From Halichondria panicea (lineage: Eukaryota > Porifera > Demospongiae > Suberitida > Halichondriidae), in the NCBI RefSeq assembly GCF_963675165.1, contig NC_087388.1, positions 1,962,800 through 2,026,799 of the forward strand: DNA of 64,000 nucleotides, read 5' to 3'. A model generated the notes under the pieces. That model did not search any database. It had not been told where the DNA came from and was given only the letters and a program-made list of their open reading frames with translations. This document shows, piece by piece, positions 873 through 34,700 of this stretch; position 1 is the first letter of the stretch, and each line of letters starts with the position of its first letter. The position numbers and the translations under genes are program-made.

Positions 873-3800
873 CGGAGAGAAGCAGAGAACAATATGGAGG
901 TTTTGTCTGGCTCGAGACAGGAAGTAGTCGTAAAGGTTTTCAGGTGTTGGTGGTCTTCGTGGAAACTCTTTCTTCATGACGGGGATGAGGTAAGCGTTGA
1001 TCTCGTCAATTTCATCTTTAGCTAAAAGGTTGGACACCTCCCCAGAGGAGAGGACATTGTTGATGTACTCGAGGAACCCTTCATCTTTGATCTCGTTGTC
1101 AGTAAAGAGGAACGTTACTCCCTTCCCCTGCTCTCCCGCAATTCGATAGAGGACCTTGAGATCTTCCAGTAGATTGTTGGAACTGTAAGAGCGAGACAGC
1201 TGGATCTGGAACGTCTTGTAGCCGGCAATAAAGGAAGCCAATCGAGTGAGACTCTGTTTCCCTGACCCGCCCACACCAACCAGCAGGGCAGCTCCTCTGT
1301 CCGTGCGGATGATGCGAGAAATCTTTATCAGATGGACCATGGCATCTTTGAAGAAGACCAATTCCATGGCTGAACCTCTAACAGTTTCGTTGTATTGGGT
1401 GAGGAAGCTATGCAGACGATCTTGTAATTCCTGGTACTCTGGAATCTGCAGAAACAATAAAAAACATGCAGTCAACAAATTATAGAACAATATTTAAGGA
1501 AAACCATACAAAGGCTTATGGCAAAACTATAAACTTATTTACCGCTTCATATATTTTTGGTGCCTCGTACTCAAAGTCCTCAGGCTCATCTCCAGTGGGC
1601 TCAGGAGGATCTCTACGCAAGAAATAATTACGTGTAATTGATTATAGTAATCATACAGGGAGGAAAGAACACGTATTCGAAACTGTTCGCAGTTAGCAAA
1701 AAGTAACAGAATAGTCACCTGAGAAAGTCCACAAAGTATGGCTCATCAGCAAGTATTGCTTTCACCTCGGGTCCCATGTGTTCCTCAATTGCCCTGTACG
1801 TAGCACCATTAAACCAATCCTTGTCCTTCTCCGCCGTGAAGCGATCAGCTATCACACGTGTACACTCACTCTTCCAAAGAGCTAAAGCTCCTTTCTTATC
1901 TGTGATAGTATCCTTGTCAACGTGAAGCATACCCTCCCAAATTCGAGACAGATCTCGGAGATTGAACACATAATGAAATTTGGCGGGTGTCGGAAGCATT
2001 TTCACTTTTGTAGCCTGCCAGAGTAGTCTTGTGCACACTACCAAACTTTCAATAGCTGAGATAACATCTTCACTGAAACCTCGCTCTTTGCAGAAATGAC
2101 CTAAACCAATAACGCCAAAGATCTTGTCAATTGATGCATTTGAAGGAAGGGTACAGTTGAAAACAACATATTTGCTCTTGAGACGTGGAGGAATATCGTT
2201 TCTTCCTCCTCCGGGGTGAATCATGGCGGCCATGATTTGGAGGTCTTGGATGTGTATGAAATCGCCAGGTTTATCCAAACTGTAGAATCCTTTCATTTCC
2301 ATCAGCTGTCGGACTATTTCGTTGGTGATCTGATCGCCCCACTCGTTGATTCTCGGCATGTTCACGTCGTCAATAAACACAGTACATTTCTTGCCAGCTG
2401 GTGGGCCGTACGTGGTCCCCACTCTCTTGTCAATGTAGCTCTCGATGGCTCGCTGGAAGTGGCCGGGGGAGGTGGCTGAGGAGAAGGTCAAGTTCTTGCC
2501 AATCTGCTCCTCTATGTTATATTTGGACATGTAGCCCTTGATGATCACCGTTTTGGCCGTCCCCTGCTCTCCAATCAGAAGTACTCCTTTGCCCTGTTTG
2601 GCGATTGTATGAATAAGAAAGTCTGTTCGTACGTTGTCCACATTGGGAACGAGGATGGAGGCATAAGTGGGCGTGCTGTCGTGAGGGTACACATACTCCT
2701 CAACATGAGTTGTCCAATGTTCCCAGTTCCCGTCCTTGTCCACAGTAAACTCAAATATAGTATCTCCTGAACCCTCGGTACAGGCGGGGAGGTCCAAGTC
2801 CTTCTTAGTTTCTCTCAGCCATGCCTCCGCCTTGGCTCTGTCGTCAAGTTCAATGAGTGCCCCCATGCTCCACATAACAGCAAAGATATACAGCTTCTCT
2901 AGATGTGACTTGGGAAGTGAGGTGTTATCATCTTTGGCTTTGGTTGGGATAAGGCCTTCCAGGAGCTGACACGCTTGGTAGATGTAATTACATTGAAGGA
3001 GCTTCATCTTTGCTATACAGTTAACACTTGTAAACTGGTAAAGATCGAGAAAGGAAGCGTCAAAAAGAGCTGTTAATATGTCTGCCTCGGACTGTGTAAC
3101 CTTCTTCTCCGCCAGCATGTGTAGAAGCCACCCCTCCATGATGGGCTTCCATTCCAGACCAGACGAGCTCATGTACACCATTCCATTCCGGGAAACGGTG
3201 GCGGGAGATGCATTGTCCACATTATCAGGCTCAAATACAATTTTGCTGTCCGGGTACATGGGAATCCTGTCCCCATTGGCCAGAGTCAACGTTTTATTGT
3301 CATCAAGTACACTGTTCAAGTTCTCAATCCAAATTGCGTCAACAGGACCATCCAGAACTAGCCAAACATGATCTCCTTTTTTCAACTTGTGTGAACGTCT
3401 CCAGAGAGTTGAGAAAATACCGTCTGTCCAGTCGTTGGTGGCCACGTCTAGACGCCCAAACATTTCGGAGGCAGTGATAGCCTTAGGGTTCATTCTCCAC
3501 TCCTTGTGAGGTACGCCGATGTCTGTCATAGCCTTCATGAGGATGTGAATACACTTGGTCTTCCCCGTGCCCGATGGACCCAGGACCATGAACCCGTGAC
3601 GTACAGATTGTGTCTCGTACAGCTGGATGAGTTTCAGAGTCCAAGATGGGTGGTTGATGAGTCCCGCTTCCCGCACTTCTTGATCAATGGCCGCCTCCAG
3701 GTCATCGTACACAGCTTTGGCTATCTCAATGCCTGGAAAGAGATCGTTGATGAGGGACATGAAGAGAGGCTCGTCTTCGTCCACTAGCTTAGAGAGGTTC

Positions 3801-6800
3801 ATGTCTCTGAGACCTCTCATTACAATGGTAAGTTCAGTATCGGTTTTGGTGGCCCTCTTGGCAGCTCCGAGAGTTCTGAGCACGGAGAGAATGTTTCTGA
3901 GTCCAAAGTCGTAGTGGACCTGTTTGGAGAGCTGGTCCTCGCACAGTTTGTAGAGAGTGTAGAACTTCTCTGAGAGAACAATGTTCTGAAGGAAACCACA
4001 ACTGGCCAACTTCACTCGAATGATGATCTGCATGGGGGAGAGTGAAGGGATAATAATACATGTAGCTATTTCAATTCATTGCGATACGTATGTACATTAG
4101 TATGCAGAACTACGTACGTTCATTTAAGGGAAATTTAGCTTTGAACAGGACAAATAATTTGATTGAGCTTGTGAAATAGCTTCACGTACCTTTCTGTCAG
4201 GGACCATCATAGCGATGGGTCTGAAATTCATCTTGAGGTTCTCAGGTAGCTCTTGCCTACCAGCATAACCAGGATTCTGTGAGAGATAATCAAGATAGCA
4301 ATTACTGTAGTTAATACTAATGGTCGACAGTGAGTTTATATGTAGTTAGTGCATGGCTCACACCAATCACAAATAATTGGCTAAAATGACCAAAGCGACG
4401 TATTTAACCACAATGAAATGGCCTAAAATAGCACCAAAAAGCATAGAAACAAGAAAAATAAGTATAGAGCAAATGGTATAATATTATACATTGTACATAC
4501 CATAGTGAGGAAGAGTCCAAACTCAGGATTCATAGTCACCACATCTCCGTCCATGAACACAAACTCGGCTTTACGTTCCTTCCTACACATGAGGATAATT
4601 GCAATCTGTTGAGCAGCCACAGAGAGAACGGGTAACTCTATCCTGTTGAATTCGTCGAAGCAGCCCCAGCTCCCAGACTGAGCCAGACCCTTGTAGATCC
4701 TGCCCAGCCCTCGGAAATCCATCTGATCGGAGCAGTTGAACACGACTACGTACTTTCCTAGAGCTCTTCCCATATCTTTGACGGTCTCTGTCTTGCCAGT
4801 GCCAGCTGGTCCTGCCGGAGCCCCACCCATTGAGAACCCGAGAGCCTGGGCCAGTGTGATGTAGCATCTGTCAGTGAGAGGGGTGATGACAAGTCGCTCT
4901 GTGCAGCCGATAAACTCGTTCTGATAGATGAAGTCAACGTCGGTGATGGAGATAATGGTTTGATTGCTTTCCTCTTTGTAATAGAATCTGCTTTGTTTCA
5001 ACCAGTCGAAGTCTGTTGCTGATTTGATTTTCAAGGTAACCTAGAAAAGATGGATATCATTAATGTATGTGTAGAAATAAATATGTGTAGCGACATGTGA
5101 TGGTATTTACTATACGTAGCTACGCGTACATACGAAAGCATTTGTAAAGGTACACGTAGTGTATACCATTGTACAAATTCTTGTTCAATTATTAAGAGCA
5201 AAATACCATGGCACAGGGTCATGTCTTGTTAGTTGCCTACATAATTATTGGAATCGTATGTATAGTTAGTTACTGCACAACAAGCCTTACCAAGTCGTGG
5301 AAGATATCTCTCTGATGAAGATGGATGGTAATGAGCGTCTCAAACTTCCTTCGAGATATTTTTGTAAGATTCCGAGTAGTGACATCAATAAGAGCGACTA
5401 GCATCTCAAGAAATACCTCATCCGTGCTGGCCATAATCTTTTTGTCTGAGCGAGCACTGTTCAGGGCAATCTCAGCGTCCCTCGTCCAAATAAACTGAAT
5501 ACCCAAGATTCCGATCTGCATAAACAATAATTATAATGTGTAGCACCCTTTATTGTCAGCTGTAGATATTATTATACGTAGTCTACATGTACTGGCAGGT
5601 AACTCTGTAGAGCTACGTATCATTTTATAGCGTGCACGTGAGTACTTGTATACTAATTTAACATGTAAGATAGGCTTAGTATAATTATGCCCCACTCAAG
5701 GTACAATCCAAATAGCGAGACCACATGCACTTCTCAGAAAATTGGAGATACGCTTAATTAGTTATTTGGTCACCTGAGCTGGTTGAACGTCAAGGAAGTC
5801 CACCATGTCGAAGCTAGGGTCCTCGACAGCAATAGACGCATTCCTGATCACCACGTGCACTGAATGTAGAGCCTCCTTAAGCAGAGCACCCAACCAATGC
5901 TCCACGTTGCCCTGGGCCACCACAGGCTTGTCCAGCTGTGTGTGTGTGTACATGTACACATTATTATAGGTGAGTAGATTGTTTGTTAAACTGTGTAAAA
6001 TTGCACATTTCAGTATATAATAAAAGGTCTGCATGGGGGATAGCTAGTTTAGAATTAAGGTTCGTGTAGTGCTATGAAAGACTGGAAACTCATCGGAAAA
6101 AATTGTCAGACACAATCATTATACAGTGTGTAGAAAATTTCAGAGATAAAGCTTCAGGATTGGATCAGCCCAACAAGTTTGGCCATTACTTCAGAAGGAA
6201 GAGGTTTGAGATTGCTAGATCTACAGCTAGCAGAAATTACATAGAGGAAATTTTATATGACATTGTGGTAGAAAGTATAAGTTATTTTTCTATACCCATG
6301 GTGTATTCACACACTATAAAATTATATCTGTAAGCTCACCTCGATGGTCTCGGGCTCTCTGGAGTGGATGTGTGTGATTTTATCGTACTCCTTCTCATGG
6401 AAGGTCACTGTCTTGGTGTTATCGAACACACTCAGGAGATGGGCTTGTATGGTGTGAGAGTCTGATGCCTGTCCGAGGATCTCGAGGAGTGCCGGATCTG
6501 AGACAAAGAAGAATCGTGGGAAGACGAGTCTCTTCTTCTCGAGGTAGCCGGTGAGGGACTTCTGACAGAGCTCCAGCTGCTCCAGGAGATGGGGCAGCAG
6601 CTGTCCGAGTGTCTCATCTCCCACACAGCATGTCACCACGTTGGAGTTCTCGTGAGCCTTTGTCATGATTTTGATCCATGACTTGTCAATGTTCTGGAAA
6701 CGCTTTGCTTCCTGGAATGGAGTGGAAAGTAGTGTTACCACTATGCAAGCAATACATGTATATACTGTTGTGATTGAAACAACACTATACTGATATAAGA

Positions 6801-12800: not shown

Positions 12801-15321
12801 GACAATTGTGATGAAACATTCAATATAATTATGTGATCTGTTTGCATTTAGAGTGAGTGGGTGAAGTACCTCTCAAATCTTTGAGTGAACTCAATAGCTC
12901 TCTGCACTGTTTTAGCGTTCTCAAAGTACTGCTCCATAAACATCTGAAGTTGCTCCTACGTATACATTAGAAGCGAGCACATTAGAATATAATAATTATA
13001 AGTTCCAGCTATACAGACATGAAATGTTGTGAGGATAATTTACAACAGACTAGCCATTTTTACAAACACGAATGATAATTGTTACATAATTATTAGATTA
13101 TTATCTGACCTCAAAGTCTTTGAGTTGCGCCTTGAACTCCAAGTAGTCAATGTCAAAGTCTGGCTTCCTATGTTCGAGAGGGTCATATCCCTTCTTCTTC
13201 AAGTTGGTGACCAGAAGATCAAAGCGGGAGTTGTATGTCTGAATACCTTCAATCTGTGATAGACCAAGAGTTTCAAATGACCTGGCTATCCGCAAAAATT
13301 CTTGCATGTTCTCAATCCTGTATAAGAAATATTCATAGAATGAGAACTCACACGTGAATCAAATTAGCAAATCATGAATCTCAAAGCTCTTGTTATTGTA
13401 ACATGTCCCCCACATGTATTTCCATGGTAACCAGGCAGGTAACAGCAGTACCAATGTGTCACCTTTTTCCAAAGTTGTTGAATTTTCCAAAGATGTACAT
13501 CTCCGAGAAATCAAACTGCCTTTCGTCGGGGTGATCCCTGAGTGTCTCCTTGGTCCTCTGGAAGACCGCCTGGTACTCGTCGTTGAGTTTGAGGCATTCA
13601 GAGATCCTCTGAAGAACCACACCCACTTCCTGCTCCCACACTTTGTGGTAACCACTGTCCGTGAGGTGGGCCCTACACGCTGTAATCATCTGGTTCGTCA
13701 CCTTCACAAAAAGTGCCGTCATCCGGTCAGATGTGTTGTAGTAGCGAGAGTAGCTGTTGATCATGCGAATGGCGTTCATGAGTCCCGGAATGGCATCTAA
13801 CATTGTCACCTGGGGGGAGGGGATTGCTGAGTCAGCAGGGGTTGCTCTTAACGTATTTATGGAACTTACTGGATTGCACTTGTAGAGAGGCTCACAATAC
13901 TTCTCCAGGGTGTACAGGAACTTGACGTTGTCTTTGGCCTCATTTGTGACATCAGTGATGGTCATGTCCTGATCCTTCCACCTCTGTAAGATACATACAT
14001 TTAGGAGACGGATATTGACCTGACTATTGGCAGGTGAAAAAGGGGCTGGGCTGACCTACCTGCAAGACTTTGGATTTGCTGGCCACCAGCACGCTGATGA
14101 CTGCTCTGCATTGAGGGCTCTTTACACAAGTGGTGAGGGAGTCAAACTTGGCCATTCTCTTCTTCCAGTGCTCCAGCTCAGCCCTCGGGCCCACACTATC
14201 AGACTCCTTACGCATCTGCTCCGACTGAGTGAGGATGAGCTCGATCTCCTTGCACCAGACCAGAGTGGTGTCCTCCGCTGCCTCCACTGTCTCTGGCTGG
14301 CCAGCGACAGCCATGATCTCTGCAGGGCTGGAGATGCCCGCCAGGACTGGATGAGAGCATGGTGTCAGCTTCACAGCATTCGCTATGCTCGCACGTGCAT
14401 TGGCTATTACGGCTACGAACGACGACAGTTTGCTGAGGAAAGCTTCTTTTCTTACATGACCATTAGCATCCTTCGAGAGGTTTCCCCAGTTAGTTTGGCA
14501 CTGTAGAGCTGGTATGAACACCTTGGTGAGCAATGATTCTACAGCTTCAAGTAGACCTCCTCCATTAGCTTCAAGGATCCCAAAGAATGTTTCATTGGCC
14601 ACATTTGAAGTGGTAAGACCTTTAGACGTTGTACGAATAAAGAAGATTCCAAGTCCCGGGAATTTCTCTTTGGTACCATCTGTCAGGTAAAGGTTCTTTG
14701 TCACCTTTTTTTCTGTAATGCATAATTGATAGATTAAGGTTAAAACTATTACAGCCACATTGAATGCATCTGTGACAAACTCACTCTCTCCCTCCACTGT
14801 AGTAGTTTCTTCGTAAAAGAACAGGAGACACTTGGAGCCATTAGGAGCAAAAAAATCTTCTATTTGTTGAACCTATACGAAGGAAATGCAATGGTTGTCA
14901 ATAACAACGGAGCTTTTGCCTCCTATATCTTAGAACTGTGTAATAAATACCCCACCCCACTTATGCTTTGACAAAGTTTCTCACTTCATCTCCTTCGAGA
15001 ACAAAATCCTCCACTTGACTCTCTTCAAGACAAAGTTTTGTGGCAACCACACTAAAGACGTACTGATGTCTTGAATCAAGAGTTGCTCTTTTTGCTTCCT
15101 TCTCTTCTTTCAGACGTTGCTGAGAATAGATAGAAAATAAACATTATTTTCCTCAATTAGAAACCTACTTGTCTTTCTTTGATGGCATCTGCCGGCATTA
15201 CTGAAGACCTCTTTGTTTTGGTGGATGCCTGATCCCTTCTCAAGTGTTTCCTGGTGGTAGCTATCTTGGTCTTGAGTCCAGGACCACCAGCTCCATCACC
15301 AGTAGGAGAAAGCTCAGCCAT
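873..15321 (-). CDS. DNAH5/DNAH8-like: Axonemal outer-arm dynein heavy chain (DNAH5/DNAH8 type), 5' part, 26 exons
   Basis: Motor subunit of the ciliary outer dynein arm, an AAA+ ATPase that slides doublet microtubules. Exons (5' to 3'): 15321-15169, 15119-14985, 14872-14785, 14712-14060, 13983-13870, 13809-13463, 13317-13110, 12955-12870, 12325-12019, 11866-11645, 11445-11095, 10936-9928, 9637-9402, 9064-8960, 8896-8783, 8528-8227, 7685-7445, 7204-6851, 6711-6340, 5935-5774, 5515-5291, 5040-4501, 4276-4190, 4027-1719, 1612-1543, 1445-873. They encode about 3,121 in-frame residues. Visible are the N-terminal tail, the linker, and four P-loops: GPAGTGKT (about 2005, AAA1), GPSGTGKT (about 2287, AAA2), GEQGTAKT (about 2623, AAA3) and GVGGSGKQ (about 2987, AAA4). 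Segments such as [33 protein letters not shown] and NPGYAGR match the DNAH5/8 class. The model stops at a donor after ...LHIVLCFSP. The stalk, AAA5 and AAA6 (about 1,500 residues) must lie left of the window. Exon 10936-9928 could instead begin 6 nt later. DNAH5 versus DNAH8 cannot be decided. Confidence 0.95.
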
Positions 15322-15593
15322 GCTTAAACAGAAGCTATAGGTAGATCTAGCTGCAGCAAAATTTATGTACCTGGCTATATCCTAGCCTAGGTTGCAGCTT
15401 TGATGACAACAAGCTAGCCTACAGAGCAAAGCATTACACTAATGCTGCAGCAGGTAGCTAGTTTTGTGTGAGAGCACTAGAGTAGACCCTCCCCTAAAAC
15501 TATTGGATGCACATCTGCAATCATACGAGCCCCTCCTCCAAAACAAACACAGGGGGCGTGGCTCCTTTGTGACATCATCAAACAAGGTAAAAC
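15322..15593. promoter_or_regulatory. Bidirectional promoter, dynein / cathepsin Z-like
   Basis: There are 272 bp between the start codon of the dynein gene (minus strand) and that of the protease (plus strand), so both promoters must fit here or overlap the first exons. I see no canonical TATA box and no RFX X-box. The right end carries a GC-rich run (GGGGGCGTGGC) near 15553 and a CRE-like TGACATCA at about 15570. Confidence 0.6.
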
Positions 15594-16484
15594 ATGGCTG
15601 CTTTCAAGGCTATCTCAGTACTTATTTTCTGTTCCTGGGCTGCTGCAGATACTGCTGCTGAATATGGAAGCTGCTACAAGGAGCTAAGTGGTCCACTACC
15701 AAGCCATATTGTCACTACACCTCCACACAAGAGGCTCGATTTTGATGTAATTCCGGAATCTTTCGACTGGAGAAATGTCAACAACACGTACTTTGTCACC
15801 CAGGTCACCAACCAGTTCCTACCCTCACCATGTGGCTGTTGCTGGGCACTTGCAGCTGTTGGTTCGCTCACAGATCGAATGATAATCGCTACAAAAGCTA
15901 AAGTCCCAATAGTCCCCCTGTCCCCTCAAGTTCTGCTTGATTGCACTGACCCCGATCTCGGCACATGCAAAGGTGGTAGTGCACTCGGTGCTTACAAGTT
16001 CATCTACAAGAATGGCATCACCGATATAACCTGCTCTCCATTTATGGGGGTGGATGATTTTTACTGGGCCGAACAGCCGTGCAAGGAGACCATGTGCCGA
16101 ACATGTGATCGATTCGGTACCTGCAAGTTCATCAACGGACCTACATACTATATTTCTGAATACGGGACAGTGCAAGGAGAGGACCAAATGAAAGCCGAGA
16201 TCTTCGCTAGAGGTCCTATAGCCTGCTCCGTTTATGCTCATAGTGATCCGTTTGAGAAGTACACAGGGGGTATTATAGTTGACCCCGCCCAGTACAACAT
16301 GACCACACACGTGGTGGCCATAACAGGCTGGGGGAAAGATCAGGACACTGGAATGGACTATTGGATTGGACGGAATTCGTTTGGAACGGCTTGGGGAGAG
16401 CTGGGTTGGTTTCGACTTCAGAGAGGTGTGAATGCTCTGGACATTGAGAACCACACTTGTGCTTGGGCTGTGCCGAAAATGTAA
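15594..16484 (+). CDS. CTSZ-like: Cathepsin Z/X-like cysteine protease, single exon
   Basis: A 296-aa papain-family (C1) carboxypeptidase-type protease, expected in lysosomes or secreted. A hydrophobic signal peptide covers about residues 1-19. A short propeptide follows with a cysteine in GSCYKELSGP, matching the pro-cysteine of cathepsin Z. The mature enzyme starts near PESFDWRN. The insertion before the active site (NQFLPSPCGCCW) corresponds to the diagnostic mini-loop of cathepsin Z. Predicted catalytic residues are C83, H239 (THVVAITGWG) and N261 (NSFG), with Q74 for the oxyanion hole. The usual CGSCW is CGCCW here and NSWG is NSFG. The gene has no intron although its neighbours have many, which suggests a retrocopy or intron loss. 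A possible ATTAAA poly(A) signal is near 16535. Confidence 0.93.
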   Translation: MAAFKAISVLIFCSWAAADTAAEYGSCYKELSGPLPSHIVTTPPHKRLDFDVIPESFDWRNVNNTYFVTQVTNQFLPSPCGCCWALAAVGSLTDRMIIATKAKVPIVPLSPQVLLDCTDPDLGTCKGGSALGAYKFIYKNGITDITCSPFMGVDDFYWAEQPCKETMCRTCDRFGTCKFINGPTYYISEYGTVQGEDQMKAEIFARGPIACSVYAHSDPFEKYTGGIIVDPAQYNMTTHVVAITGWGKDQDTGMDYWIGRNSFGTAWGELGWFRLQRGVNALDIENHTCAWAVPKM

Positions 16485-26801: not shown

Positions 26802-28374
26802 ATGGCACTAACTCATGCTCTAGCTTGTGCATGGAGCATACTATGCATATTCAATTATGCATCATCTCATGGTATTTAACGATTTTACTAGCCTAGCTAT
26901 TTAAACTAAAAATCCATCTGTGTTCAATTGCCCAACTCAAGTTATTGTAGGGAGTGGCGATGGCAGTGGAAGTGGTATACTGGTTCCGGACTGTCCTCAG
27001 GCACCCATTAAAGTGAACATCACCCGACCAATCAATACCGAATTCTTATCGCAGGTCCATCTCACTGGAATAAGATTACCCGTCACAAGTAAACCTGATG
27101 ACCTCTCTGTCTCCATCACTCAAATTAAGCTTCGCCCTGAAGCAGTTAACTTCAGGATAGCTGCAGGAGACGTAACAGTACAGATCAAATTGTCTAGTGA
27201 TAGTAAAAAGCTTACAGTTACTGTTGCCGGGGATCTTGTGTCAGCAACTATGATAATTGTGGACATCTTGGTACTTGATGAGGACGATATGATGATGATG
27301 ATGGACGATTCTTCTTGCAAGTTCAGCATTGAGATAACAGTGCAGGATCGTTCGAATTGTGCTGAGGAGAGCTCTATTGTTCGCATTTCGAATGCTCAGC
27401 TTGAGGGCTTCTTTGCAGTTACACTCACACTGAACATTCACGTGACTGATGTGAGTGTTTTAATTTTTTGCAATGTTCCCCTTTGAATTAACAAATTAAT
27501 GTCCTAGCTAGGAGTATCAAAATGCCTATATCTAAATGCTGGAAAAATCCTTACATTTATTTTTTATACTCATACGCAGTTCAATTCTGACAGTTCAATT
27601 CTGATCCAAATTGCAACACCAATTGTCAGAATACTGAACTCCGTCTGTCCTCAAGACTGTAACAGATGTGGAATGGGAGGGTAAGAGTAATTGCATTTAT
27701 ATAACAATGTAGGTAGCTAAAATTATCACTGAGCCACAGGTTTAGGGTTTTAATAACACATATAATTATTATCTGACATGCAGATCTTGCAATTCCTACC
27801 TGCAATTCTGTCAAGAGTTTTCTGTGAGCGATATCGAACTATATGACGCACCAAAAGCAGGGCTCAGCAGGCTAGTCAAGAGAGCTATCCCCACTACAAC
27901 AACACAAAACACAACTGTGATAAACCTGGTTTTGAGGCATCCAACCGGATCCCCACTCAGTGGAATCGTAGCACTAGTACCACCCTTCACTTCCCTCAGT
28001 GCTCTCAACGATGCCCTTCAAACTATCCAAAACACCACAGGCATTACGATATTCGACACTGATGCTTTGATAAACAGTTCAAACATCATCATGACAACCT
28101 TTTTTGCTCACATCGTCCTACCCATCATGATAATACTGTTTGTTCTCATCTTGGCAATTGGAGTGATCATTATTCTGATTGTTGGGTAAGTGCTAAGAAA
28201 CAAACTACGCTAAGCCCATTTAATGCCAATTGAAACATGTAGGTGTTAAATTTTGCGTGAACTTCACTTCCTGTTATACTGCTCATTTGTCATTTTGTTT
28301 ATCACAGGAGAAAGAGAAAGAATAATAGGAAGAAATCAAAGATCCGACCTCTGATTGGCAGTACCTCCTCATGA
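26802..28374 (+). CDS. Unrecognised type I membrane protein with furin-like site, 5 exons
   Basis: Exons 26802-26871, 26951-27450, 27580-27680, 27784-28185 and 28308-28374 give 379 aa with every junction in phase. Residues 1-23 look like a signal peptide (MALTHALACAWSILCIFNYA). Then comes SGDGSGSG, a possible glycosaminoglycan-attachment run of SG repeats next to an acidic residue. A roughly 160-residue beta-rich ectodomain follows, with an acidic run (DEDD plus five Met). Next are a small cysteine cluster (CPQDCNRCGMGGSCNSYLQFC, EGF-like spacing, about 213-233) and RLVKR at 253-257, a furin-type cleavage motif. A Thr/Asn-rich juxtamembrane stretch, a strong membrane segment at about 330-357 and a basic 22-residue tail complete it. 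No family was recognised. I chose this start because the signal peptide appears only with it and the 1+2 phase fits. An AATAAA lies at 28611. Confidence 0.75.
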
Positions 28375-28663
28375 TCACAAAATGCATATTGGGGAGAGGA
28401 AAAACTCATGTCTAAATCTAACTGTAAACTTTATCATTATGTAGTGTAGCATTTTTTGATTGGTGAGTGTTAATTATTTTGAGGATAAGCTACATGTACA
28501 TACAGCTGTAGTATTACAAACAGTGGAACGAGAGGTACAAGTGAGCAACAATACCATAATAATGTAAATAGCTGGTACTTATAACAAGCACCTCAAACTA
28601 TAGAAATGAAAATAAAATAATTATGTTGAAGGTACAACTATAATTTATATGCACACATTATTG
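28375..28663. other. Convergent 3' intergenic spacer
   Basis: There are 289 bp between the stop codons of the membrane protein (+) and POT1 (-), AT-rich, with AATAAA at 28611-28616 on the plus strand. Nothing else was recognised. Confidence 0.6.
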
Positions 28664-31647
28664 CTAAACACTAACTTTACAAACAGTGTCATTAAGAGTG
28701 AATCTTGTCTTGCCGTCAATAGAAGTAAATGTTCGTACACAGCACCTGACACGAGGTCTCTTTAAGTCCACTTCAGTAGGTACGGGGTAAAACGGATCGT
28801 TTCCACCTGTCAACACATACAACAACCTAGTTAGTTCCTCTCTTGAGCTTTGCCGGGCGTAAAGATTTGTCGGGCGCACATGATGCAGAAAGATTTCACC
28901 ATCTTCAGCTGTCACACAAATGTCCAGGATGCCTGTTCGATCTTTTAGTCGCATAACAAACACATACATGTACACAAGACAAGGACCATCGTTCTTAGAA
29001 TCAGAGCAAAAAACACACACCATTTCGGCTGGTAGGGGAGGGTCACTCGACCGTGGAGAAACATACCTCGTTTTACACATGGAGCATCGTAATTGACAGA
29101 GCTCCTCGATTGGTCCATTACTAAAACTCATGATTTGTCCCTCGACAACGAATAACTTCCCAGATCGAGACTTTAGCACTTCTTGCACTGTAGCTGTTTG
29201 TTTCATTCTGTCATTAATGATAATTTCAAACAGCGGATCAGGGGGTGTGTTAGAAGGCCTCATAAAGATGGGGAAGGGTCCACATGGTTCGGGAAAGTCA
29301 CTCAAATATTTGTTGACCAGTTCCGACTCATTTCCAGTAAGTACTGTGATAGTGCCGCTGTTTTGCTTCGAAGAGAGGGTAAGTTTAACGGCCTGGATAT
29401 CATTTTTTCCCAAGCAAGTTCCATCTTGGCAGTTGGGCTCAACGTGTACATTTCTCAAAGATATGTATTGTCCAGGTTTAATCGAGAATTGCCTGTTCCA
29501 GTCAGTAACTTGCACTTCACAAATAATGGAGCTGTTTAATTTGACTGCAAGCTGACGGTCAATATCACTAGTCCACCGTCCTCGAGTTGTATCGAGATGG
29601 TCGCAAGGAAACTTTGGTGTTGTGCCATCGAAAATATCGAGTACTGTGCGATTTTCGTTCATACAAGTGTGTACAGCAACCACCCTGCACACTGTATTGA
29701 AGAAATGACCAACACTGAATTGACAAAGTTGTGTATTGACCAGGAGCATGCCTTGTTCATGAGACCAGGTCTTAAGACGAGCGATAATATCCTTCTCTTG
29801 ATTAGATAATGAATACCAGTCGCCGATGGATCTTGGAACAGGCTCATTTTGGCGGTTTCGGAACACCCCAATAATTGCACCGTTGTAGCCAGTAGCTTGA
29901 ATTCGACCTTGGTACTTAGACGTCTTGAGACCTTTCAGAAGGACAATTTGGCCTACAGGAATATTGGAGATTAGTTGCTGATCTGATGGATTGAACAATG
30001 TACAGCTGACAGTATTTGTGGCACTGGTTTCGTCCAATAGTCCTATTGTGATGTAATAATCACTTCCTCTTGAGCGTGTTACAGGTTTGAAGTACTGTAC
30101 TATCCCACATACCGCCACACTGCCTTGACCGACCGCCAATGAACCCAAGTTTGTATGGGGAAGATTGACAGTTTTCCGATTCGTTGACGAGGGCCTGAGA
30201 TCATTTGATGATGTAGCTGCGAATTGTTGAGAGTCTATATCGAACGTTTGCGATGAATCAACGATGTTTGTTGTCGGATTGTCTGCAGGGTGTGAAATGG
30301 ATGGTGGCTGGTTGGTTGTGAGAGGTTGAGAGTCTGGCAGAAAATAAGACAAAATGCGTTATCTATCAAAAGTGTCACGAGTAAGAATGTTTCTTTTATC
30401 ATTACTGTCGGATATTGTGTGTGTGGTTGAAACCCGGATGATAATGTCAGAGCTTACCTTCAAGGGGGAGTGACAGTCTGCATGACAGAAACGTACATGC
30501 ATACTGTACCCTTGTACCCTAAGCAGACATACAGTATACAGGCAGTTATAGTTTAAGCCATGTACCCGATAACATGTAGCTCAATAACGTAATATTGTAT
30601 ACATACATTGGTACAAATAATAATGAAAGCACCGCAGGTGCTGATGCCTCGGTGGAGATGCTAAAGCTAGATAACATATAAAGCTACTAATAGCTTTTAT
30701 ACACCATTATATCATAATTATGATGAACATCATTATTTTTGTAATTTTTGCTGCATCAAACTCAGAGTGGGTAATGATCAACCACGATTGTATTAACGAT
30801 GCCAAAAGTTCAATAAATGGCTGCATCAGCAGAGCCTTGCAGCTCTCTTTTCACTCTTGCAGCTACCAATAGCCAGCGTTCTAGTGCAGAGCTAACTACT
30901 AAGTAGAGTAGCAACACTCGGTGAACAAGTTTTGCTAGGCACTCTTCTGAAAAGGCTGCAATGACATTCCAAGTAAGCAAAACTAGGCACAACTCGATAA
31001 CGAAGCATTATTTTGCAAATCGAATTAAAATCCATGACTAGAAGCCTATAGAAACTCTTACTTGCACTTCATTGATCCCTGAGCAGCTGTAGCACTCTAC
31101 ACAGGCAGACAGACACACACACACACACTAACTGCATGGGCACCGAGGCATAATAATTATGTGGAACACTAACAAAAAATAATTTAAAGTACATCCCCGT
31201 AAACGAGCCCCGCCCACCTTGTGATGTATTGGACAGCTCTCTCCATGCTCTTAGCTCATGCACCCGGGTCCTCTCAATAGCAGACACAGTGCAGTTAGGT
31301 GAACTTGTCACGGGGATGCTGTTGCCATCTTGAAATAGGACCCAGCTCGTGAAACTTGAACCAGTGAGACAACTATCGGAAAAATCACAACGTCTCACAC
31401 ATATAATATCGCCATCTTTGCACCCTCCAGGCAGTTTCTGCAACTCTTTATTGAATAGCACACACGTCATTGACTGATTTGAACTTTCATCTGCTATGCC
31501 AATAGCACAGGAGTAGTCTGAGCGTCGTGTTTTAGCCGGAGCTCTGAAGTGCTGCACAGCTCCAATCACATTGACCCTCTTCATTCCATAGCTCAATTGC
31601 GATATCTTGTTGTATGTGTACGATCGAGGAGGTGTTCTTCTTTCCAT
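28664..31647 (-). CDS. POT1: POT1-like telomere ssDNA-binding protein with duplicated N-terminal OB fold
   Basis: Shelterin-type protein expected to bind the telomeric G-strand overhang in the nucleus. Two exons, 31647-31218 and 30333-28664, join in phase (CAA G | AC TCT) to give 699 aa (human POT1 is 634). Exon 1 (residues about 14-135) is a Telo_bind-type OB fold: VIGAVQHFRAP...RSDYS...DES...CVLF. Exon 2 repeats the same pattern at about 200-300: VCGIVQYFKP...GSDYY...LLDET...CTLF. A second-type OB follows (about 340-440, with LDIFDGTTPKFP). The C-terminal OB (about 530-699) has paired cysteines C560/C563 and C583/C586 and YVFVMRLKDRTGILDICV, close to human YVFVMTFTLDDGTGVLEA. The two cysteine pairs are only about 20 residues apart, whereas human POT1 has a resolvase-like domain between them. 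The intron carries a dispersed repeat. If the junction is wrong, exon 1 would be a separate single-OB gene, but phase and order argue for one gene. Confidence 0.88.
30623..31130. repeat. Dispersed repeat, copy 2 (POT1 intron)
   Basis: About 500 bp matching 150-690 in the same orientation, with shared blocks such as GGTGCTGATGCCTCGGTGGA and CTCTTCTGAAAAGGCTGCAA. It fills more than half of the 884-bp POT1 intron. No coding capacity was seen. Confidence 0.85.
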
Positions 31648-31789
31648 GATGTCTAACGTCTAGGCACGTCTTATATTACACTAGCAGGTAAAGATCATCA
31701 CAAACGCGTACAGTTGAATCGACTCCACCCCCTCCACACATGGAGTTTGATGCTCTTTAATTAGAAACACATTTCTGTGTTTTTTAATT
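31648..31789. promoter_or_regulatory. Bidirectional promoter, POT1 / p47
   Basis: There are only 142 bp between divergent start codons, so the two transcripts must initiate within or next to this segment. No TATA box was seen. Confidence 0.65.
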
Positions 31790-34700
31790 ATGGCCTCTAT
31801 AGATCCTACTCAAGAGGAAAGCATTGTCCAGTTTGTGAGTGTGACTGGAGCTGATAATGAAAGAGCTCTCTTTTACCTACAAGCAGCTGCTTGGAATCTA
31901 GAAGTAAATTGCCTTGTCACGATAAAATGATTATACACTCAGCTTTATACACAATAAAAATAATTTGTCTATCCTAACAGTCTGCCCTAAGTGCTTTCTT
32001 TGACAATTCTGAGCCGTCCCACTCTGGTGATGGTCTGGGGGATGAACCTCTCATGCCAGTCCAAGAGACGCAAGCTCCTGATCCCTCGGCTGTCCCCAAC
32101 CGTCACGCTGTACCCGAGAAGGAAGAGGCATCATCAAAGCAACAGTGAGGATGTGTGTGTATATAGGTGACAGGTGACTGTGTGTTGAGAGAGAGAGAGA
32201 GAATTTGGGTGTGCACTACATAGATTGTACGTGTAGGAGTGCACTGATATCTAGTGTGTGGGCACATGTGTATCTTAATCTCATTGCACAATCATGTACC
32301 TATTATCATACTGGCATTATTGTGGTCTTGTTATTGTGTATTGGGGCATGAAACAACAGTAGCTATAATTACAGTCGCATTATACTATAAGTTATTGCGA
32401 CTCTAAAAGCCATGCAATGACACACAAGTTTGTGCACATACAGTGTACACATTATTCATTCACTCATACTGACATAGGGGAGGAATTGCCACCCTCTCTG
32501 ACTATCAGTCCAAACCGGGAACTTCCAGTGGGGACAAAGGTCAGGAGTACTTTGCGGGGGGCTCTGAGCACAGTGGGCAGATGATTGAGGGCCCTCCCAG
32601 GAAGAAACAGACCCCTGACAGTATCGCCAAAGAGGTGTTTGAGTCAGCGAAGAAGTGAGTGGTTGATGTATTTACACACCTCACAGAACTTAATCTAAAC
32701 ATGTTGTAAGAGCTGTTTTTATTAATTTATGTACACTTGGGTCCTCTTGTGATATAATACGTATGTCAATGTCCACAACATCTGTCATATCCCCACTCCA
32801 CCCCCTGATCACACCCACACTACAGCCAAGGTGCCATGAACATTGATGAAGAAGAGCAGCAGAAAAAGAAAGATAAATCAGCAGCTTTCCAGGGTTCAGG
32901 GTTCAAGTTGGGGGACTCAGAGGGTCCGAGTGTGCAAATCAGAGGAAGAGCACGTGACCAATCATCTGAGAAGGTATGTAACAGTAGCTGTGCTAGTACA
33001 GTGTTGTTGTGAGTGTGTCAGTGTGCTGGTGTTTACATTGTACAGTGTATAAGTTATCCGAGGCCATGCCGCGGCCAGCAGGTATATTATTCCGTTGGTT
33101 TGTTTGTTTGTGACATGTGAGTCTACTCACTTGGATACCATAGCGCTGTGTTTACAGTATGGATAGCCTTCACACAACAAGTTATTACCGTATATCTTCT
33201 AATTTATCGGACAGCAAAAAATAATTATTTTAGAAATTGTCCGGGTATAATTGGAACAGATTTTTATAGAGCATGCGAAGTGTCCGGAATAATTAGAACA
33301 AGCAAGCAGCTGCATGCGAGCTAGCTAAGTTTAATAGAACAGGGTACGACTGAATAGTTGCACTAGCTATCTAAAACTAGCCACTCAAAGCTATCTATCT
33401 GCAGCACTCAAGCCTTACTTGCCGTCTATGAATGGTAACTCAACTTTTCAAGGTATTGTCCGGATATTTAGAACAATGTAATATTAAAGTACTGGCGTGT
33501 CCGTTGTATTAGAACAACGAAAATTGCCCAAAAGAGTGTCCGGGGTAATTAGAAGTGTCCGATAAATTAGAAGATATACGGTAGTTTTAATAGTGGCAGA
33601 TTTGCTCGTTGTAGAATAAAAGCCAGCAAAAGCTAAGAAGCTTGAACTTGCACGTTGGCTAGCTAGATAACACGCGACGTTTATTCGAGGCAGATCTTAT
33701 TCTACATATTTGCAGCTGAAGTGATCCTTTACCCGTCTCTATTAGAAGTAGGTTGTTCTTCTTTACTATTGTATAACTGAAAATTCCTCTAGATCCTATT
33801 AATTTTACACTTCAGTGCTCTAGTTATTATAGTTACATGTAGCAGATAGAAAGTTTGTTTTGAAGGCCTTATTGTGTTTTCAGTTGCTATACATGTACGT
33901 GTAGCATTTCATTATTAATGTTTGTGGTTTTCGCTGATTAGGCATGTACACGAACATTATTTTATACCCACAAATTTAATATCTCATGCATGCATGCTGC
34001 AAAAAGGCCTGCTATTCCTTAAATCCACGAAATCCATTCGAATGGTATTCCTGCGAAAGTTCACACCCTCAAAATAATACGACTATTACATTCAGTACTC
34101 TTACTCATTGCATTTATAGGTGCGTGTGTATAATTATGAGTGAGACTTAAAAGAAATATTCCCATGAACTGTTGTAAAATAGAGGTTGTCTTCAATCAGA
34201 CAATCCTATGTAGTACATTTTATTGTACACTTTATCGTACATGCCCCTCCCCCTCAGGTTCGACACACATTAACGTTCTGGAAGGATGGTTTCTCAGTGG
34301 ATGATAGTGAACTGCGCAATGGAGAGTCGGAAGCTGACAAGGCCTTCATAGCAGCCATCCGTAAAGGGTAAGTTAGAACTCAAGGCTAGTTGTGAATGTG
34401 GCTTGTCCTAGTTTCAGTTGTACTGTGCACACTTGTAGAAAGGATCCTCTACAGTCATGTATCTCTTATATTATGCACACCATTATTATTATTGTGCACA
34501 AAAATGTGCATGTACTTCTGTGTGTGTGTACTTGTAATGTCGATAATTATCATGTTACAAAGTTTGTTTGTTCAGGGAGATTCCTCAAGAACTACTTCGC
34601 TCGGCTAAAGGCGGGGAAGTAGACATTGACTTACAGGACAGACGAACAGAGAACTATGTCCAACCTAAACGCAAGGTCGTGGCTTTTTCTGGGGAGGGGT

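Follow-up and report, generated by a model that had tools for sequence, protein, structure and literature searches.

In the sponge Halichondria panicea, a gene on contig NC_087388.1 is very probably a POT1 paralogue that has diverged and whose product has tandem OB1-type domains, the predicted order being OB1', linker, OB1, OB2 and OB3. This assessment concerns the anatomy of the protein and its assignment to POT1, and it assigns no specific role to the additional domain. The gene lies in a window of 64,000 nucleotides (the whole stretch of DNA analysed) and consists of two minus-strand exons, whose conceptual join gives an in-frame protein of 699 aa with a terminal stop and no inner stop (Table 1). 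The original prediction described a POT1 with two tandem Telo_bind/OB1-type domains before OB2, and both parts of that description hold up well: PF02765 is found in both exons, each time above the Pfam cut-off, PF16686 is found in exon 2, and the best matches of both exons among solved structures are human POT1 chains (E 1.2e-10 for exon 1 and 4.4e-12 for exon 2). At the level of sequence, the match of both exons to POT1 is far beyond chance. How the chromosome ends of animals are held and protected depends on the domain composition of POT1, and a doubled first OB fold may change how POT1 holds them.

Table 1. Features of the POT1 gene in the 64,000-nucleotide window
Feature	Position	Strand	Remarks
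Exon 1: ATG and first OB1-type (PF02765/Telo_bind) domain	31218..31647	-	430 nt, 143 codons plus 1 nt
Intron, GTGGGC...CTGCCAG	30334..31217	-	884 nt, GT...AG ends, phase 1
MITE-like high-copy dispersed repeat in the intron	30613..31156	.	imperfect inverted ends at 30644-30661 and 31134-31151
Exon 2: linker, second OB1, OB2 and OB3-type end	28664..30333	-	1670 nt including the stop
Linker between the two OB1-type domains	30173..30333	-	about 55 aa, in exon 2
Second OB1-type (PF02765) domain	29762..30130	-	in exon 2; E 4.3e-12, 49.0 bits
OB2 (PF16686, POT1PC)	29390..29728	-	38.5-41 bits, cut-off 27.2
C-terminal region, candidate OB3-type	28664..29239	-	191 aa; alignment to the C16 paralogue, position, motif

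Gene model and genomic setting

An important question is whether the two exons are joined in one transcript. The junction had been placed at 30334/31217; the in-phase join stands, but these positions are the outermost bases of the intron, and the junction itself is 31218|30333. The earliest methionine in exon 2 is residue 195 of 555, just past the OB1 of that exon, and this OB1 therefore needs an upstream coding exon. Scored with donor weights, the donor at 31218|31217 reaches 4.1 bits in the right phase and is the sole positive score among the 27 GTs tested, which lie between nt 330 of exon 1 and the point where its open frame ends. The donor sequence GTGGGC departs from the perfect consensus, and 1.4% of the 8488 GTs on both strands of the window score as high. 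Taken at the level of the DNA, the evidence favours a single transcript for exons 1 and 2.

An alternative is that the two exons are parts of different transcripts, exon 1 being a single-OB gene or isoform of its own. Nematodes have POT1-like proteins with a single OB, and the frame of exon 1 remains open as far as 31069, which gives 192 aa from its methionine. This arrangement would leave exon 2 without a start before its OB1, however, and the intron showed no ATG-led mini-exon that is in the right phase and whose donor scores above 3. In addition, the proposed donor fits the phase and is the best of 27, and the dispersed repeat takes up about 540 of the intron's 884 bases. We consider separate transcripts very unlikely, and joined exons remain the preferred gene model. 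At least 45 matches to the repeat are listed, 40 of the 3332 first-look candidates having been scored, and at least 40 long copies besides that of the window, 80-86% identical, are spread over 16 contigs.

Upstream of exon 1, the first exon of a UBA_4 gene (31790-31903, plus strand, 45 bits), which is p47/NSFL1C-like by eye, lies head to head with the POT1 gene, and the ATGs of the two genes are separated by 142 bases. The exon 1 ATG thus stands beside a likely shared promoter. A search of window positions 27000-34000 against Rfam at the gathering threshold gave no match. Elsewhere in the window are minus-strand exons of a dynein heavy chain (AAA_6, AAA_7 and lid domains at 1715-4075, DHC_N1 at 13459-14055) and, at 15591-16484 on the plus strand, a 297-aa open frame for a cathepsin-like, papain-family cysteine protease (PF00112, 163 bits).

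Identity of the tandem domains

The check with PF02765 that had been proposed for the two segments was run, and exon 1 scores as a member of the Telo_bind family with 58.3 bits (residues 22-136), while exon 2 scores 49.0 bits, against a cut-off of 29 (hmmscan on the separate frames). A six-frame search of the animal's own genome (131 Mb, 39 contigs) with the same family gave three places, all three first-look candidates having been scored: two are the domains of the window gene, at E 1.7e-13 and 4.3e-12, and the third, at E 9.1e-20, belongs to a paralogue on contig C16. At least 10 matches to Wnt in this genome point to an animal. PF02765 had matches in none of 14 control genomes, which thus provided no positive control. 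The motif order that the original prediction saw in both copies is indeed common to them, as GAVQHF, DY, DESS and CVLF in exon 1 and as GIVQYF, DY, DETS and CTLF in exon 2. OB2 follows the exon 2 OB1 directly, and the only two matches to PF16686 in the genome are the two POT1 genes. NCBIfam yielded nothing useful.

The C-terminal region carries paired CxxC motifs, CSMC and CVFC, and hmmscan placed no Pfam domain in it. Alignment to the C16 paralogue, position and the cysteine motif make it a candidate OB3-type domain. No HJRL was recognized in it, the region being 191 aa in length with 19 residues between the CxxC pairs.

The C16 gene comprises a first exon of 539 nt, a phase 2 intron and an exon encoding OB1, OB2 and an OB3-type end, in frame for a protein of 717 aa. 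It thus has the same two-exon plan as the window gene, in which an N-terminal domain and an intron precede an OB1-OB2-OB3-type end. The C16 OB1-OB2 pair is closer to human POT1, scoring 98 bits against the human OB1-OB2 chains, compared with 48 bits for the exon 2 described here. The C16 gene therefore looks like the conserved copy, and it is the window gene that looks diverged. The OB1 domains of the two proteins can be aligned clearly, and their C-terminal regions are clearly alike (33% identity, E 3.2e-7; z 18.6, with 0 of 500 shuffles as good); that of the C16 protein has the cysteine pairs CTHC and CPRC and a weak stretch of similarity to human OB3 (5.7 bits). Similarity between the OB2 domains is weak (z 3.9, a value reached by 3 of 500 shuffles), and the linkers have no significant similarity (z 0.6, 131 of 500 shuffles as good). 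Because the linkers are unalike and the intron phases differ (1 in the window gene, 2 in the C16 gene), the shared plan may be partly a coincidence.

Unlike exon 1 of the window gene, the N-terminal domain of the C16 protein has no match to PF02765. Its searches returned no Pfam match of note (the best, at E 0.19, is to an unrelated family), one PDB match at E 1 and no other match in the animal's own genome. Judged by its position, it is a candidate OB-N.

Could the tandem arrangement be an assembly artefact or a decaying duplicate? The gene is diverged, with an exon 2 OB1 that is 23% identical to the C16 OB1, as a decaying copy might be. Against this, the gene lies within a contig of 6.76 Mb and its 699 codons are intact and retain the domain hallmarks; moreover, the tandem copies are only 26% identical and so are no mis-assembled duplicate. 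An artefact or decay is highly improbable, and an intact tandem gene is the reading followed below.

All-against-all comparisons with 200 shuffles place exon 1 among the OB1 domains, with z values of 30.8 to the C16 OB1, 27.1 to human OB1 and 19.3 to the exon 2 OB1. In the same test, the C16 N-terminal domain gave -0.8, and the two OB2 domains gave 0.1 and -0.6. When aligned by hhalign to a three-sequence OB1 profile, exon 1 gave an E value of 4.4e-18 and the C16 N-terminal domain one of 0.71. As exon 1 resembles the OB1 domains and is unlike the C16 N-terminal domain, it is an OB1-type domain in the position of an OB-N.

A competing explanation is that exon 1 is the lineage's own OB-N, which merely looks like an OB1. 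Exon 1 stands where an OB-N would stand in the chain, and the available text of PMC9119445 reports OB-N as widespread in metazoans. That text also weighs an OB1 duplication as the origin of the basidiomycete OB-N; the phylogeny there does not favour it, and its authors could not exclude independent origins. But exon 1 reaches 58 bits to the OB1 family, above the 49 bits of the gene's own OB1, and it is unlike the C16 N-terminal domain, itself a candidate OB-N. An OB-N in disguise is accordingly unlikely in our estimation, and an OB1-type first domain is preferred.

Where such an OB1-type domain came from is less clear-cut. In a likelihood test with four sequences, the grouping of exon 1 with the C16 OB1 was best (bp-RELL 0.636), and the grouping with the OB1 of its own exon 2 was not rejected (bp-RELL 0.355, AU 0.353). 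Grouping exon 1 with human OB1 was rejected by the AU test (0.030), but not by the KH (0.138) or SH (0.184) tests. A C16-like gene is therefore slightly better supported than the neighbouring OB1 as the putative source. The tandem copies share 26-27% identity, so either the duplication is old or the domains evolve fast. Among viral contigs, 18 pattern matches to the OB1 alignment and two to exon 2 were found and none was confirmed; a search of genome contigs with exon 1 gave 46 matches, again with none confirmed. As the contigs searched were viral, bacterial and archaeal, these results make no statement on relatives in other animals.

Possible functions of the exon 1 domain

What might the additional OB1-type domain do? 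In the favoured explanation, splicing of the two exons would yield a single expressed chain, in which the exon 2 OB1-OB2 pair would bind the TTAGGG overhang in the usual POT1 way, and OB3 would dock a TPP1-like partner. The exon 1 domain, OB1', would be a copy of OB1 that stands where an OB-N normally stands and has lost part of the surface that stacks on ssDNA.

The telomeric setting is that of an ordinary repeat. TTAGGG arrays together with a 31-bp satellite are present in seven of 12 contig-end stretches (neither is present in four, and one reads N), and the array and the satellite abut at the two contig ends that were run through Tandem Repeats Finder. Given the TTAGGG arrays at contig ends, the telomere repeat is the common one. 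The TPP1 family PF10341 has no match in the animal's own genome, nor has it any in the control genomes. For telomerase, the TERT RNA-binding domain (PF12009) gave six matches at three neighbouring places within about 109 kb of contig C14 (2648638-2652458, 2686848-2688710 and 2755968-2757381), and one of the matches contains two in-frame stops. Pieces aligned by blastn among these places are about 79-94% identical, and some of them may not be exons. This looks like a tandem amplification of TERT in a genome with two POT1 genes.

The residues of the two copies bear on their predicted roles. In human OB1, the stacking positions are 31, 62 and 89 (PMC4598567, where it cites Lei et al.). In our alignment, these positions are Y, F and Y in exon 2, D, F and Y in the C16 OB1, and H, F and a gap in exon 1. 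That exon 1 lacks a tyrosine kept by exon 2 had been predicted, and two alignments agree, with no residue of exon 1 at human Y89. The suggestion that the exon 1 copy has diverged in this segment is likewise borne out: both Y89 and Q94 are missing from exon 1 (at Q94 one alignment has a gap and the second another residue), and exon 2 keeps both. Exon 1 does keep human F62 and D42 and has R at human positions 33 and 39, and with these retained residues DNA contact is possible.

One possibility within the same anatomy, in line with the longer footprint suggested in the original prediction, is that the tandem copy extends the stretch of ssDNA bound with high affinity by one whole TTAGGG repeat. 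The telomere is a regular TTAGGG array, and F62, D42 and the arginines at 33 and 39 of exon 1 would fit such a role. However, exon 1 keeps only F62 of the three stacking positions, and a longer footprint is weakened by the loss of Y89 and Q94 and by the H in place of F31. Position 31 by itself is not decisive, since the C16 OB1 also has no aromatic residue there. On balance, a footprint longer by a full repeat is rather doubtful. It is likelier that the exon 2 OB1-OB2 pair, rather than the exon 1 copy, is the overhang binder, and OB1' would most likely be an accessory domain and no third full-strength DNA reader.

Another possibility is a division of the two jobs of OB1. The OB1 POT-hole holds the 5' phosphate (available text of PMC7617103 and PMC12913867). 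Exon 1 keeps the Y-x-Y start as well as two basic residues at human positions 82-83; the exon 2 OB1 has no Y-x-Y start and has K-G at 82-83. We take positions 9-11 and 82-83 to be part of the POT-hole. The exon 1 copy might then cap the 5' end at the ds-ss junction and the exon 2 copy read the 3' overhang, a reading prompted by the Y-x-Y and basic 82-83 of exon 1 and by Y31, F62, Y89 and Q94 of exon 2. Such a split is unlikely; if true, one chain would hold the junction and the overhang with separate domains.

Within an accessory part, several roles for OB1' may be entertained. It might make an accessory contact with ssDNA, a tentative reading of which the full extra-repeat footprint makes up somewhat over half. 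By analogy with OB-N, it might instead serve in protein contact, a suggestion we make just as tentatively. Specialized capping of the ds-ss junction would be a considerably less probable role, and what is left of the odds goes to a domain with no retained role.

Comparison with known POT1 architectures

The choice of human POT1 as the baseline in the original prediction proved a poor one. The available text of PMC9119445 ascribes four OB folds, the fourth being N-terminal, to most POT1s of metazoans (following Myler et al. 2021) and to most Pot1s of basidiomycetes. As four OB folds are thus ordinary for an animal POT1, what sets the sponge gene apart is the OB1 type of its first fold, and a further point of interest is that it is one of two POT1 paralogues. 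The same text describes the OB-Ns of metazoans and basidiomycetes as nearer to one another than to either OB1 or the OB-N of RPA70, and reports that a basidiomycete OB-N models on OB-A of RPA70. The Ustilago OB-N is described there as having no nucleic-acid binding and as helping to bind Rad51. The origin of the N-terminal OB is under discussion, and PMC9119445 considers shared ancestry, a duplication of OB1 or OB2, and a relationship to RPA70.

The tandem-OB1 POT1 may be a previously undescribed arrangement; the evidence for this is weak, namely that a literature search, which took in several longer lists at their top and few subscription papers, turned up no POT1 described as carrying a second OB1-type domain. 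An OB1-type N-terminal fold, beside a dissimilar one in the C16 POT1, would show that a copy of OB1 can fill this position. Moreover, such a protein would offer a natural test of the ssDNA-reading against the junction-capping surface of OB1. The finding would become more interesting if the tandem were conserved in related animals or if the functional split were true.

Like the window gene, the four-OB POT1s of metazoans and basidiomycetes have an extra domain before OB1 and four domains in total. Their extra domain is an OB-N, as far as these POT1s are described in PMC9119445, whereas that of the window gene is OB1-type by comparison with OB1 domains and with the candidate OB-N of the C16 protein. 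Human POT1 resembles the window gene in having OB1 followed by OB2 and paired cysteine motifs in its C-terminal part. It differs in having a single OB1 and an HJRL inside OB3 (available text of PMC7598640 and PMC9333443), while the window gene has two OB1-type domains and a C-terminal region of about 191 aa. A further parallel is found in mouse (POT1a and POT1b), ciliates and Arabidopsis, which have POT1 paralogues with divergent roles. Of the two mouse proteins, POT1a is the one for which an OB1 POT-hole is described, and POT1b behaves like a POT-hole mutant (available text of PMC3558436 and PMC12913867). In those organisms, as described there, whole POT1 genes have been duplicated, whereas in the window gene the first OB is also doubled within the gene.
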